Below, in pieces: positions 14,044 through 43,954 of a stretch of DNA of 64,000 nucleotides (position 1 is the stretch's first letter; each line of letters starts with the position of its first letter). Made by a program: the position numbers and the translations under genes. Source of the DNA: Flavobacterium xinjiangense (GTDB lineage Bacteria; Bacteroidota; Bacteroidia; Flavobacteriales; Flavobacteriaceae); NCBI RefSeq assembly GCF_900142885.1, contig NZ_FRCL01000002.1, forward strand, positions 310,001 to 374,000, written 5' to 3'. The notes beneath the pieces were generated by a model. It ran no database searches, was not told the DNA's origin, and saw only the letters and a list, made by a program, of their open reading frames with translations.

Positions 14044-14126
14044 GAAGCTATTTCCAGCTGTACACTATATCTTTTTATCTCGTTTTTGAAAACGAGATAA
14101 AAAGGATGCCGTTTCCATCTGGGCTA
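14044..14126 (+). repeat. Structured dispersed repeat, copy B
   Basis: It begins GAAGCTATTTCCAGCTG and ends GTTTCCATCTGGGCTA, with a central 16-bp stem (14071-14086 with 14089-14104, CTTTTTATCTCGTTTT on the left). Basal pairing CCAG/CTGG. It ends 13 bp before the ATG of the glycosylase gene, so it would form most of that gene's 5' leader if transcription reads through. Confidence 0.85.
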
Positions 14127-25146: not shown

Positions 25147-25231
25147 AATAAATATAAATTTAAAATTAAAGGGAGGAAAATAATTGCTGGAAATAATACT
25201 AAAGGAGAGTTTCTGCTTTAGCATTTTTTCT

Positions 25232-25306
25232 ACTGAAAATTTTTCAGTATCCATAATGAATTCGTTTCATTATGAAGAGGTTGCAATCAGTTCAAATTTT
25301 TCCTCT
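25232..25306 (-). promoter_or_regulatory. Structured 5' leader of metK
   Basis: The metK transcript should start near 25312, giving a leader of about 165 nt. It contains three hairpins: AGAGG/CCTCT (25276-25280 with 25302-25306), CATAATGAA/TTCATTATG (25252-25260 with 25266-25274, 5-nt loop) and an ACTGAAAA/TTTTCAGT palindrome (25232-25248). It does not show the SAM-I core. Whether it is a regulator is inference. Confidence 0.4.
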
Positions 25307-25318
25307 TGTATTCGAGTG

Positions 25319-25348: not shown

Positions 25349-25486
25349 TTAATCTTTTGTTTTTTTTAATTTAAATAAAGTTAATTTAACATATCCTAGT
25401 TGTCCTATAGAGATTGTGAAATAAATTGATTTTTCTTTGGTGGATTCAAAAATAATTTGCAATTTTGTCTCATCAAATAAGAAAAA

Positions 25487-25555
25487 ATGAAATTAGTTAC
25501 TATTAATATGTGTTGCATGATGCCGGAAAATTTCGCAGAGTGCACTATTGTATAG
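25487..25555 (+). CDS. Met/Cys leader peptide 1 of the metY attenuator
   Basis: A 22-codon ORF with the run NMCCMMPENF; Met-Cys-Cys-Met-Met are codons 8-12 (25508-25522). It ends 27 nt before an intrinsic terminator. The segment GCAGAG (25535-25540), inside the ORF downstream of the MCCMM codons, can pair with CTCTGC (25585-25590), the left arm of that terminator. A ribosome stalled for lack of Met-tRNA or Cys-tRNA would leave GCAGAG available and block the terminator. The ORF and pairings are seen; the function is inferred. Confidence 0.7.
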   Translation: MKLVTINMCCMMPENFAECTIV

Positions 25556-25582
25556 TTTTAAATTTTAAAATATATAATCAAG

Positions 25583-25609
25583 ACCTCTGCTAACAGCAGA
25601 GGTTTTTTA
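25583..25609 (+). terminator. Attenuator terminator 1 upstream of metY
   Basis: Perfect 9-bp stem ACCTCTGCT/AGCAGAGGT with loop AAC and six T. It lies 332 bp before the metY ATG and between two Met/Cys-rich mini-ORFs, so it can only be a premature terminator for the downstream gene or the end of a very short transcript. Confidence 0.85.
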
Positions 25610-25691
25610 TTTTATGTCGAATCCATTTCCACATCTGAAGAAATAAAAAAAGATATAATTCAATTTTGTAAAACCTATTAAACACAATATT

Positions 25692-25772
25692 ATGATTAAA
25701 ACAGTAGCAAATAAAATGATGAGGTGCTTTATGATGCGTATGTGCATCCCAATTTGCTATTGCCGAAAGTGA
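25692..25772 (+). CDS. Met/Cys leader peptide 2 of the metY attenuator
   Basis: A 26-codon ORF with six Met and four Cys, mostly within MMRCFMMRMCIPICYC (codons 9-24). The last codons CGA-AAG, as CCGAAAG (25763-25769), can pair with CTTTTGG (25809-25815) in the left arm of the second terminator (one G-U pair). That is where an antiterminator strand is expected, at the leader stop codon. Such a composition is very unlikely by chance. It has no promoter of its own that I can see, so it is probably cotranscribed with leader 1. Confidence 0.75.
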   Translation: MIKTVANKMMRCFMMRMCIPICYCRK

Positions 25773-25803
25773 AAGATAGAATCTTTGTTATAGTTCAAAC
25801 TAT

Positions 25804-25841
25804 AAGTCCTTTTGGTAAGTCATCCAAAAGGACTTTTTTTT
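25804..25841 (+). terminator. Attenuator terminator 2 upstream of metY
   Basis: Perfect 12-bp stem AAGTCCTTTTGG/CCAAAAGGACTT with loop TAAGTCAT and eight T, ending about 75 bp before the metY ATG. An alternative hairpin TTATAGTT/AACTATAA (25789-25796 with 25799-25806) overlaps its first bases. Confidence 0.88.
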
Positions 25842-25914
25842 ACTGAAGAAATGAAAAATACTAAATAAATTAAAATGCAAAATAAATAATTTATAATATT
25901 AAAATCTAAACATC

Positions 25915-27207
25915 ATGAGCACACAAAAATTTGCAACAAACGCACTACACGCGGGACACGACGTAACAAAAAATGCAGGAACCAGAGCTGTTCCTATTTA
26001 TCAAACCAGTTCTTATGTTTTCAATAACTCGGAACATGCCGCCAATCTTTTTGGTCTTGCTGAACCCGGATTTATCTATACGAGATTGAATAATCCAACA
26101 AATGACATTCTGGAGCAGCGATTATCTACTTTAGAAGGCGGTATTGGAGCGGTAGTTACGGCATCCGGAACCGCAGCAATTGCCACAACGTTATTGGTAT
26201 TGCTAAAAGCGGGTGATCATATTGTGGCTTCCAACAGTTTGTACGGAGGAACGTATAATTTATTAAAAGTTACTTTGCCAAGGTTAGGGATCACCACCAC
26301 ATTTGTAGATCCATCCAATCCGGCTAATTTTAAAAATGCTGTCCAAGAAAATACCAGAGCAGTTTTTGTAGAATCTTTGGGGAACCCAAAATTAGATGTG
26401 CTGGATTTGAAAGCTATTTCGGCTGAAGCCAAAGCATCTAAATTACCTTTTATTGTGGATAATACGGTTGCATCTCCTTATTTACTGAACCCAATTCAAT
26501 ATGGAGCCGATATCGTCATTCACTCGTTGACGAAATACATAACGGGTAACGGAACTTCCTTGGGAGGTATTATTATTGATGCAGGAAATTTTGATTGGAC
26601 GAATGGGAAATTCCCCGAATTCACTGAACCTTCCGCGGGTTATCACGGATTAGTGTATCACGAAGCACTTGGAAATGCAGCATTCATCGCTAAAGTTCGT
26701 ATCGAAGGTTTGCGAGATTATGGTGCTGCTTTGAGTCCGTTCAATGCGTTCCAGATTATTCAAGGATTAGAAACATTACCTATTCGAATTCAAAGACACA
26801 GCGATAATGCTTTGGCTTTAGCCCAATGGTTAGAAAGTCAGGAAGAGGTTGCATGGGTAAATTATCCGGGATTGAAATCGAGTAAATATTATCTATTAGG
26901 GCAGGAATATTTGCCAAAAGGACAAAGTGGAGTAGTTACCTTTGGTCTAAAAGGAGGATTTGAAGCTGCCAAAAAAGTGGCAGATGAAACTAAATTATTC
27001 TCGCTTTTAGCCAATATTGGTGACACCAAATCACTAATTATTCATCCGGCAAGTACTACGCATCAGCAATTGTCTGATGAGGAGCAAATTGCGACAGGTG
27101 TTTCCAAAGATTTAATCCGACTTTCTGTTGGTTTAGAAGATATAGAAGATTTGAAAGGAGATTTGAAAACCGTTTTTGAAAATATAAAAAAATCACAATT
27201 GGTCTAA
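25915..27207 (+). CDS. metY: O-acetylhomoserine sulfhydrylase (MetY-type)
   Basis: A 430-residue PLP enzyme of the Cys/Met metabolism family that joins sulfide to O-acetylhomoserine to make homocysteine. FATNALHAGHD, PIYQTSSYVF, the long-form sequence IYTRLNNPTNDILEQRLSTL, the PLP lysine in IVIHSLTKYITGNGT and LIIHPASTTHQQLSDEE are typical of the long (about 430-residue) MetY subtype. It is preceded by the tandem Met/Cys attenuator and followed by a terminator, so it is a single-gene unit controlled separately from the SAM-riboswitch operons. Confidence 0.93.
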   Translation: MSTQKFATNALHAGHDVTKNAGTRAVPIYQTSSYVFNNSEHAANLFGLAEPGFIYTRLNNPTNDILEQRLSTLEGGIGAVVTASGTAAIATTLLVLLKAGDHIVASNSLYGGTYNLLKVTLPRLGITTTFVDPSNPANFKNAVQENTRAVFVESLGNPKLDVLDLKAISAEAKASKLPFIVDNTVASPYLLNPIQYGADIVIHSLTKYITGNGTSLGGIIIDAGNFDWTNGKFPEFTEPSAGYHGLVYHEALGNAAFIAKVRIEGLRDYGAALSPFNAFQIIQGLETLPIRIQRHSDNALALAQWLESQEEVAWVNYPGLKSSKYYLLGQEYLPKGQSGVVTFGLKGGFEAAKKVADETKLFSLLANIGDTKSLIIHPASTTHQQLSDEEQIATGVSKDLIRLSVGLEDIEDLKGDLKTVFENIKKSQLV

Positions 27208-28641: not shown

Positions 28642-28670
28642 CTCCTTTAAGTTCACAAACGTATTGAAAT

Positions 28671-28774
28671 GTTATAAAGAAAGGACGAGGGATTAGACCC
28701 AATGAAGCCTTAGCAACCCTTCGATTTATCGAAGAAGGTGCTGCATTCTACCACGCCAAACGTGGAAAGATAAC
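28671..28774 (+). ncRNA. SAM-I riboswitch (S-box) upstream of metX
   Basis: P1 GTTAT/ATAAC (28671-28675 with 28770-28774) closes the aptamer. The core shows GAGGGATTAGACCCAATGAA, then GCCTTAGCAACC, a P3 stem TTCGAT/ATCGAA, AAGGTGCTGCATTCTACC and a P4 stem CCACG/CGTGG: the classical SAM-I sequence. It binds SAM and should turn off the metX-thrA-osmC-metZ operon when SAM is plentiful. Confidence 0.95.
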
Positions 28775-28785
28775 AACAAGAATTT

Positions 28786-43733: not shown

Positions 43734-43756
43734 CAGTGTTCATATATTTATTGAAA

Positions 43757-43872
43757 GTTATCACGAAAGGCGGAGGGAAAGACCCAATGAAACCTTAGCA
43801 ACCCTTTATCTTTAAAGAAGGTGCTACATTCTACTTTATGCTGAATTTATTTCAGTATCTAAGATAGATAAC
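43757..43872 (+). ncRNA. SAM-I riboswitch upstream of metH
   Basis: P1 GTTATC/GATAAC (43757-43762 with 43867-43872). Core GAGGGAAAGACCCAATGAAA, CCTTAGCAACC, AAGGTGCTACATTCTACTT and a P4 hairpin ATGCTGAA/TTTCAGTAT. All SAM-I conserved blocks are present. No obvious terminator follows within 60 nt, so the expression platform is unclear. Confidence 0.95.
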
Positions 43873-43954
43873 ACAAGAATACTTCCTCAGTATTTCTCAA
43901 ACCTTTTCTTGACAACATATCGATATTTTGACTACTGAATTAATTTCAGTATCA

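Follow-up and report, generated by a model that had tools for sequence, protein, structure and literature searches.

Tandem methionine/cysteine leader elements upstream of metY in Flavobacterium, predicted to act as two transcription attenuators in series

In Flavobacterium xinjiangense, metY, which encodes an O-acetylhomoserine sulfhydrylase of 430 residues, is preceded by two short open reading frames with clustered methionine and cysteine codons, each followed by a terminator-like hairpin. This arrangement, pointed out in an earlier note on the same DNA, is present as described there. The two pairings it proposed also exist: GCAGAG with CTCTGC (25535–25540 and 25585–25590), and CCGAAAG with CTTTTGG (25763–25769 and 25809–25815), the latter lying within the unit 2 antiterminator. 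Together the two units span 25487–25841. Positions are those of the window, that is, the whole 64-kb stretch of DNA that was analysed. The segments of each unit are numbered 1 to 4 in order, and the features are as follows.

25453–25459, + strand: promoter-like −7 element TAATTTG, of the Bacteroidota type (TAnnTTTG minus one base); putative
25487–25555, + strand: leader ORF 1, MKLVTINMCCMMPENFAECTIV and stop; codons 8–12 are the Met/Cys control codons
25514–25544, + strand: unit 1 protector hairpin (1:2), from the fold, an ungapped hairpin in relatives and covariation
25535–25540, + strand: unit 1 antiterminator strand GCAGAG (segment 2), with its partner CTCTGC at 25585–25590
25580–25606, + strand: stem of the predicted unit 1 intrinsic terminator (3:4), followed by a T-tract; terminator scan, fold and covariation
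25692–25772, + strand: leader ORF 2, MIKTVANKMMRCFMMRMCIPICYCRK and stop, rich in Met and Cys as read from the sequence
25702–25712, + strand: unit 2 protector hairpin, 5′ arm CAGTAGCAAAT (segment 1), from the fold, arm-swap energies and weaker covariation
25752–25762, + strand: unit 2 protector hairpin, 3′ arm ATTTGCTATTG, from the fold, arm-swap energies and covariation
25760–25769, + strand: unit 2 antiterminator strand TTGCCGAAAG (segment 2), with its partner at 25809–25818
25804–25835, + strand: stem of the predicted unit 2 intrinsic terminator (3:4), followed by a T-tract; terminator scan, fold and covariation
25915–27207, + strand: metY, starting with ATG at 25915, the presumed regulated gene (TIGR01326, 635.6 bits against a cut-off of 495.1)

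There are five terminator-like sites in 1 kb, counting both strands, against 0.5 expected, and the two longest stems are those of units 1 and 2. A scan of both strands of the 64-kb window, which took in 16 strong terminator-like sites and ORFs of 8–40 residues, found no other ORF of this size with at least four Met and Cys residues ahead of a terminator.

The conservation on which the earlier note had made its proposal depend is seen in the relatives: Met and Cys codons are kept, neighbouring codons vary and the stems covary. A MetY search at E ≤ 1e-80 across 199 genomes of the genus gave 118 places in 114 genomes; 110 of the upstream regions were analysed and the remaining eight left out. At least one leader-plus-terminator unit is found in 103 of the 110. 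Both unit types are present in 55, type 2 only in 31, type 1 only in 17 and neither in 7, which places unit 1 in 72 and unit 2 in 86 (within 780 nt). A unit with at least five Met and Cys residues occurs in 97 of the 110 upstreams as against 1 of 330 Markov-shuffled ones, and two such units occur in 43 as against none of the 330. Among the seven upstreams that lack a unit, one (L099) ends at a contig edge and two (L011 and L081) have an ORF to which the scan assigned no terminator. In a set of 80 named MetY loci, the nearest of those listed being Flavobacterium sp. AED (97% identical), 40 have two units, 21 have one and 19 none, counting units with at least four Met and Cys residues within 780 nt. 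Both are seen in Flavobacterium aquatile (L268), Gillisia mitskevichiae, Mesonia phycicola, Salegentibacter sp. R32 and a Lutibacter MAG; by the same count no unit is found at the listed Aquimarina, Tenacibaculum, Ulvibacter, Allomuricauda and Winogradskyella loci, nor at some Flavobacterium loci, such as those of F. petrolei and F. segetis.

Two small ORFs were noticed at these upstreams. In a clade with unit 1 only (L083, L084, L086, L088, L089, L112 and L113) a conserved mini-ORF, MKIAIYNPRRCCRMCS, occupies the position expected of unit 2 (about −120 to −60 relative to metY), and no terminator was found with it. At L012 a small ORF of ~55 residues (MKSIYKIEESVFPENIETDENY...) lies between unit 2 and metY, in the ~300-nt spacer of the big-genome clade.

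Each unit appears to consist of three mutually exclusive helices with compensatory changes: a protector (1:2), an antiterminator (2:3) and a terminator (3:4). The protector was absent from the earlier note's list, and that of unit 2 is the least well supported of the helices. In the unit 1 alignment (A3; 40 sequences from the genus and other genera) 81.9%, 81.6% and 96.5% of cells are paired in helices 1:2, 2:3 and 3:4, with two-sided changes in 5 of 7, 6 of 7 and 8 of 10 pairs, respectively. The covariation scores of all three are above those of 500 of 500 shuffles and of every slid version; the plain count of doubly changed pairs is matched by 110 of 500 shuffles for 1:2 and by 14 of 500 for 2:3. 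Matched changes in the unit 1 antiterminator include GCAGAG/CTCTGC, GCAGCG/CGCTGC, TGTGGG/CCCACA and GCAAGGGC/GCCCTTGC, and matched protector arms include TGTGGA/TCCGCA, CAGGA/TCCTG, CCAAG/CTTGG and TGTGTAAA/TTTACGCG. The unit 2 alignment (A2; 25 sequences) has 62.4%, 91.0% and 99.0% of cells paired, with two-sided changes in 9 of 11, 4 of 10 and 8 of 12 pairs, and the scores for 2:3 and 3:4 are again above those of 500 of 500 shuffles. Helix 1:2 of unit 2 is weaker: 2 of 500 shuffles match its score and 169 match its number of pair types, and sliding the helix gave one version with 19 double changes, compared with 18 in the real one.

Exchanging partners between genomes gave a corresponding picture. 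The 2:3 duplex has an energy of −11.9 kcal/mol with its own partner and −9.5 kcal/mol with those of other genomes in unit 1 (68 distinct sequences), and −11.4 against −10.2 kcal/mol in unit 2 (81 distinct). For the unit 2 protector the values are −9.9 kcal/mol for own arms and −7.6 kcal/mol for swapped arms, based on 71 of 99 distinct sequences, since the other 28 lack the motif needed for scoring. None of 5000 permutations was as good as the own partners for 2:3 or 1:2 of either unit, a figure that ignores relatedness and so overstates significance. In unit 1 an ungapped protector hairpin of at least four pairs, exclusive with the antiterminator, can be drawn in 93 of 96 distinct relatives, with 34 different arm pairs; its inner hairpin is weak in the window's own genome (−2.1 kcal/mol), and in unit 2 the exclusive protector is less clear. 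The remaining parts of an attenuator can be read in both units: an ORF with control codons, a terminator ahead of the gene and, inside the leader ORF, an antiterminator strand that excludes the terminator.

The codons of unit 1 were counted in 96 distinct sequences (97, less L092, whose duplex is weak). All 96 leaders have at least one internal Met and 78 have at least three, and ATG triplets within the ORFs are in frame 342 times against 11 and 6 in the other two frames. Cys is encoded by TGT (105) and TGC (54) and is absent ahead of the antiterminator strand from 17 of the 96. From these counts Met would be the constant signal and Cys a frequent addition, which refines the earlier note's suggestion that starvation for Met or Cys is sensed. 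In many leaders a Trp codon following MM sits in the 5′ arm of the protector. The DNA of the antiterminator strand is kept while its reading frame shifts (SAE, PQR, PQG and SAAR in different genomes), which favours a role in RNA structure over one in the peptide at this place.

The spacing in unit 1 fits what a leader-peptide attenuator would need, namely that a stalled and a terminating ribosome be held apart. A ribosome covers ~26–30 nt. The antiterminator strand begins 11–12 nt past the last Met codon in 61 of 96 sequences and the stop codon lies 18–19 nt past the start of the strand in 58 of 96, so the strand would just escape a ribosome stalled at the last Met codon but would be hidden beneath one at the stop codon. 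A footprint of ~26 nt is given in an excerpt of PMC13236596 (all papers here are cited from excerpts).

We suggest the following mechanism. With Met plentiful, the ribosome on the leader would reach the stop codon and cover the antiterminator strand, and the terminator would form. When elongator Met-tRNA is short, the ribosome would stall on the Met (or Cys) codons and open the protector hairpin, and the freed antiterminator strand would capture the left arm of the terminator, allowing the polymerase to read on. Where the leader is untranslated, the protector would keep the system off. As the polymerase would have to pass both gates, readthrough would multiply, giving a steeper response and a lower leak. 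The tandem Met/Cys leader pair is real and conserved, and from its anatomy the mechanism is very likely; we give a probability of roughly 0.87 to the reading that these are two ribosome-mediated transcription attenuators of metY in series, which likely sense mainly charged Met-tRNA and perhaps Cys-tRNA. What the sequences show is the anatomy, its conservation, geometry and covariation, and the gene; translation of the leaders, stalling, termination and multiplication are predictions from these, as are the response to starvation and the AND-type logic suggested in the earlier note. It is puzzling in one respect: a shortage of Met ought to slow initiation as well, a complication for any leader that reads Met. 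A further difficulty is that the late Cys codons of ORF2 overlap the antiterminator strand, where a stalled ribosome would block the strand and not free it. The mechanism needs a ribosome that follows RNA polymerase closely, a requirement that could be tested directly here, in a phylum whose promoters and initiation follow rules of their own.

The two units might instead sense different amino acids, unit 1 mainly Met and unit 2 Met together with Cys, and so integrate two signals rather than multiply one. Unit 2 is often Cys-rich (MMxCCMMxMCIPICYC, with CYCQK and CCC common), the second of two leaders before a cysH operon in another family (L220) contains TCCCTMTMCCCNCCC, and the tandem attenuators of mgtCBR can integrate two signals (PMC3641672, excerpt). 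Yet a divergent clade (L097–L107) has 4–10 internal Met and 0–2 Cys in the leaders of both units (TMMMTMMMWRNPQG; TMMMAMMMMNMMMF), and the last Cys codon of unit 2 lies in the antiterminator strand, in TATTGCC, so the structure dictates some of the Cys content. As regards different signals for the two units, as in mgtCBR, their codon content overlaps, with Met in both. We give this division of signals a lower but appreciable probability.

Whether the units act in series depends on where transcription starts. The Bacteroidota −7 element is TAnnTTTG, with a TTTG core (PMC7366714, excerpt). TTTG occurs 10–55 nt before the ORF in 69 of 70 unit 1 upstreams and in 20 of 86 unit 2 upstreams, and the fuller TAn(1–2)TTTG in 30 of 70 (7% when shuffled) and 1 of 86 (5% when shuffled). 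A putative promoter motif before unit 1, and hardly ever before unit 2, suggests that one transcript would meet both gates, so that by sequence the two attenuator-like units would lie in a single leader RNA. Should unit 2 have a promoter of its own, the units would be parallel and not serial. Besides the 20 unit 2 upstreams with TTTG, one clade speaks for this: in two genomes of the big-genome clade (L217 and L218, in G063 and G687) unit 1 is found upstream of a gene for a TonB-dependent receptor, with Plug and barrel domains, and unit 2 with metY follows ~3.2 kb further on. The near absence of the fuller motif at unit 2 and the short gap between terminator 1 and ORF2 (30–70 nt in 42 of 55) argue against it, and we consider a separate promoter improbable. 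At L217 and L218 the pair may have been split by the gene, or the gene inserted between the gates. In the big-genome clade, some of the unit-2-only cases (31 in the genus as a whole) are explained by a longer upstream stretch that holds unit 1.

Riboswitches are a local habit in the window, where three precede other genes of the pathway.

25208–25311, − strand: SAM-II riboswitch (RF01726), from Rfam, before metK
28669–28776, + strand: SAM-I riboswitch (RF00162), from Rfam, before neighbouring met genes
43755–43874, + strand: SAM-I riboswitch (RF00162), from Rfam, before neighbouring met genes

Downstream of one SAM-I element are metX-like, aspartokinase/homoserine dehydrogenase, OsmC and sulfhydrylase genes; downstream of the other are ORFs that we take, from their sequences, to be metH- and metF-like, and the window also has a sulfate-assimilation cluster whose cys names are likewise assigned by us. 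These riboswitches, which sense SAM directly, precede the metX-like, metH-like and metK genes and were not found at metY. A ligand-binding riboswitch for SAM, Met or homocysteine that controls both terminators, with the ORFs incidental, would suit these surroundings; it is very improbable given that no Rfam family, SAM riboswitch or T-box included, reaches the gathering score in 25440–25920 and that what is conserved is in-frame Met/Cys codons and short hairpins amid varying codons, with no aptamer-like core seen. Nor does a SAM riboswitch stand in for an absent leader: among 20 loci scanned, the unit-less L075, L078 and L080 have none, and SAM-II alone was found, in five (L011, L071, L090, L092 and L110). 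The proposed attenuators and SAM sensing would thus share one pathway, and the two modes of control can be compared in one cell. The window holds in addition six copies of Flavo-1 RNA (RF01705), on both strands, at 14047, 23779, 35681, 43984, 48957 and 53870; an excerpt of PMC9723704 gives no clue to its function.

That the ORFs encode functional Met/Cys-rich peptides, metal-binding ones for example, with the terminators merely separating small genes, would accommodate the Cys-rich motifs CYCQK and CCC of unit 2 but is very improbable, as the C-terminal part shifts frame between genomes with its DNA kept, a share of unit 1 leaders has no Cys ahead of the strand, and the conserved strands pair with the terminators.

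The trp, his and phe operons carry the classical leader-peptide attenuators, and Bacteroid-trp (RF01692) is presumably a Trp leader. The latter is listed in the excerpt of PMC2864571. Like the metY units, the classical amino-acid attenuators have an ORF with control codons, an antiterminator, a terminator and a biosynthetic gene downstream, and in ilvB1 of Mycobacterium tuberculosis, of the classical type, a ribosome at the stop codon masks the antiterminator as proposed here (PMC13236596, excerpt). The metY units differ in their use of Met (with Cys) control codons and in the presence of two complete units in series on one gene. Attenuation at a pair of ORFs within a single leader RNA is also known from Salmonella mgtCBR; these ORFs respond to ATP and to proline and precede a transport/virulence operon, whereas both metY ORFs are of Met/Cys type and the gene makes homocysteine (PMC3641672, excerpt). 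In the same genus, a study of F. psychrophilum reports strong indications that leader peptides act as attenuators ahead of amino-acid operons, and names elements upstream of pheA and hisG; in the main text of that paper, as excerpted, metY and methionine do not occur and the section on structured 5′ regions has no tandem Met/Cys unit (PMC9723704). The words flavobacteri, Bacteroidetes and metY are likewise absent from the excerpt of PMC2965389.

The only single-unit Met/Cys leader that we found in the literature is metL of Streptomyces lividans, before metNIQ, whose codons for Met and Cys (RCMCRRMC) likewise precede a Met gene; it is single, leaderless, has no typical terminator and serves a transporter, not biosynthesis (PMC8079986, excerpt). 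Cys-codon leaders of actinobacterial cys operons are short ORFs before sulfur and Cys genes, single, with Cys in place of Met and no obvious terminators (PMC1262725, excerpt), and the uORFC-8-2/cysS motif, with a U run consistent with a terminator, is again single and reads Cys, not Met (PMC8632094, excerpt). The uORF of the fthC motif is proposed to read the methionine level, as the metY leaders would, but by way of initiator tRNA and translation attenuation, not stalling at Met codons and termination (PMC11109978, excerpt). Our literature search yielded no description of a tandem Met/Cys element at metY, nor of a pair of attenuators for the same signal in series. On balance, we favour the view that this is a Bacteroidota design undescribed elsewhere, with two serial tRNA-charging attenuators on one transcript, both Met/Cys, forming a multiplicative gate on sulfur-amino-acid genes; that it has evolved or been co-opted on more than one occasion (at metY in Flavobacteriaceae, at a sulfite-reductase-like gene in another family and at a cysH operon in yet another); and that, beside the SAM riboswitches, it lets the pathway be read by both SAM and Met-tRNA charging. 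It would offer a natural test of what serial gating gains: lower leak, steeper response or integration of Met with Cys.

The unit 1 model R1 matches 27 of 299 genomes of the family at E ≤ 1e-6. Of these, 25 belong to 19 genera other than Flavobacterium, and at 19 of these 25 loci a MetY-type ORF follows, as judged by its N-terminal sequence. At 1e-3 R1 matches 114 of 299, mostly unreliable; matches above 1e-6 were distrusted because weak background matches occur at the terminators of ordinary genes in the window's own genome. The unit 2 model R2 matches 17 of 299 family genomes at 1e-5, and R1 and R2 match side by side in 14 genomes of 10 further genera. Beyond the family, model R3 was run on 296 genomes of the order, with 3 matches in other families, and on 395 of the class, with 2, one of which (L215) looks low-complexity. 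In the window's own genome each unit gives one strong match (R1, 1.6e-16; R2, 1.1e-21). Thirteen of the weaker matches there were read as possible second copies and rejected, most lying at terminators behind or inside ordinary genes. One of the weaker matches (L129:1507–1566, in C12, E 0.0086) has a leader-like ORF, MNYCCTIMSCKTLFITEMV, and a terminator before an amino-acid permease, and the ORF can pair with the left arm of that terminator (−8.5 kcal/mol); we do not take it for a genuine unit, as it is not conserved and only this one of 30 permease loci scanned shows a leader.

Three-helix units that would act as attenuators occur at other sulfur genes of relatives too. One genome has, beside the tandem pair at metY, a third Met/Cys leader (L219:273–341) before a serine acetyltransferase-like gene, cysK and sulfite reductase; the cysE model is below its cut-off there, and the EpsC-type and cysK models are above theirs. 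The two leaders of L220 (540–797) precede a cysH–cysN sulfate-assimilation operon, the second being very Cys-rich, and among the relatives of that genome, G518 (2 genomes in the family), the sole match to the cysH-type tandem is G518 itself. By eye, related leaders were also seen before OsmC- or metX-type genes.

In family f36 a nitrite/sulfite-reductase-like gene is found in 14 of 36 genomes (E ≤ 1e-80, the models being below their own cut-offs), and from its neighbours we take it to be a sulfite reductase. Five of the 14 upstreams show both MMCCMM-type and MCMCCMM-type leaders, two have the first leader by the scan and the second in the printed DNA, one, truncated at a contig end, retains the second leader, and six have none. 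At the tandem-pair loci (L227–L233 and L237) the leaders have terminators. At L227 duplexes with the two terminators are formed by GGAAAGC (−12.5 kcal/mol) and GCGGAAGG (−17.6 kcal/mol); not all of the corresponding duplexes at L229 and L237 are perfect. This pair appears to be a lineage of its own with the same design. Leaders for other amino acids were also met: at L167 and L169 they are rich in Ile and Val (IVSISVVVIIS; IINIISSIPAII), with terminators of the same build, and the ORF downstream is presumably ilvD.
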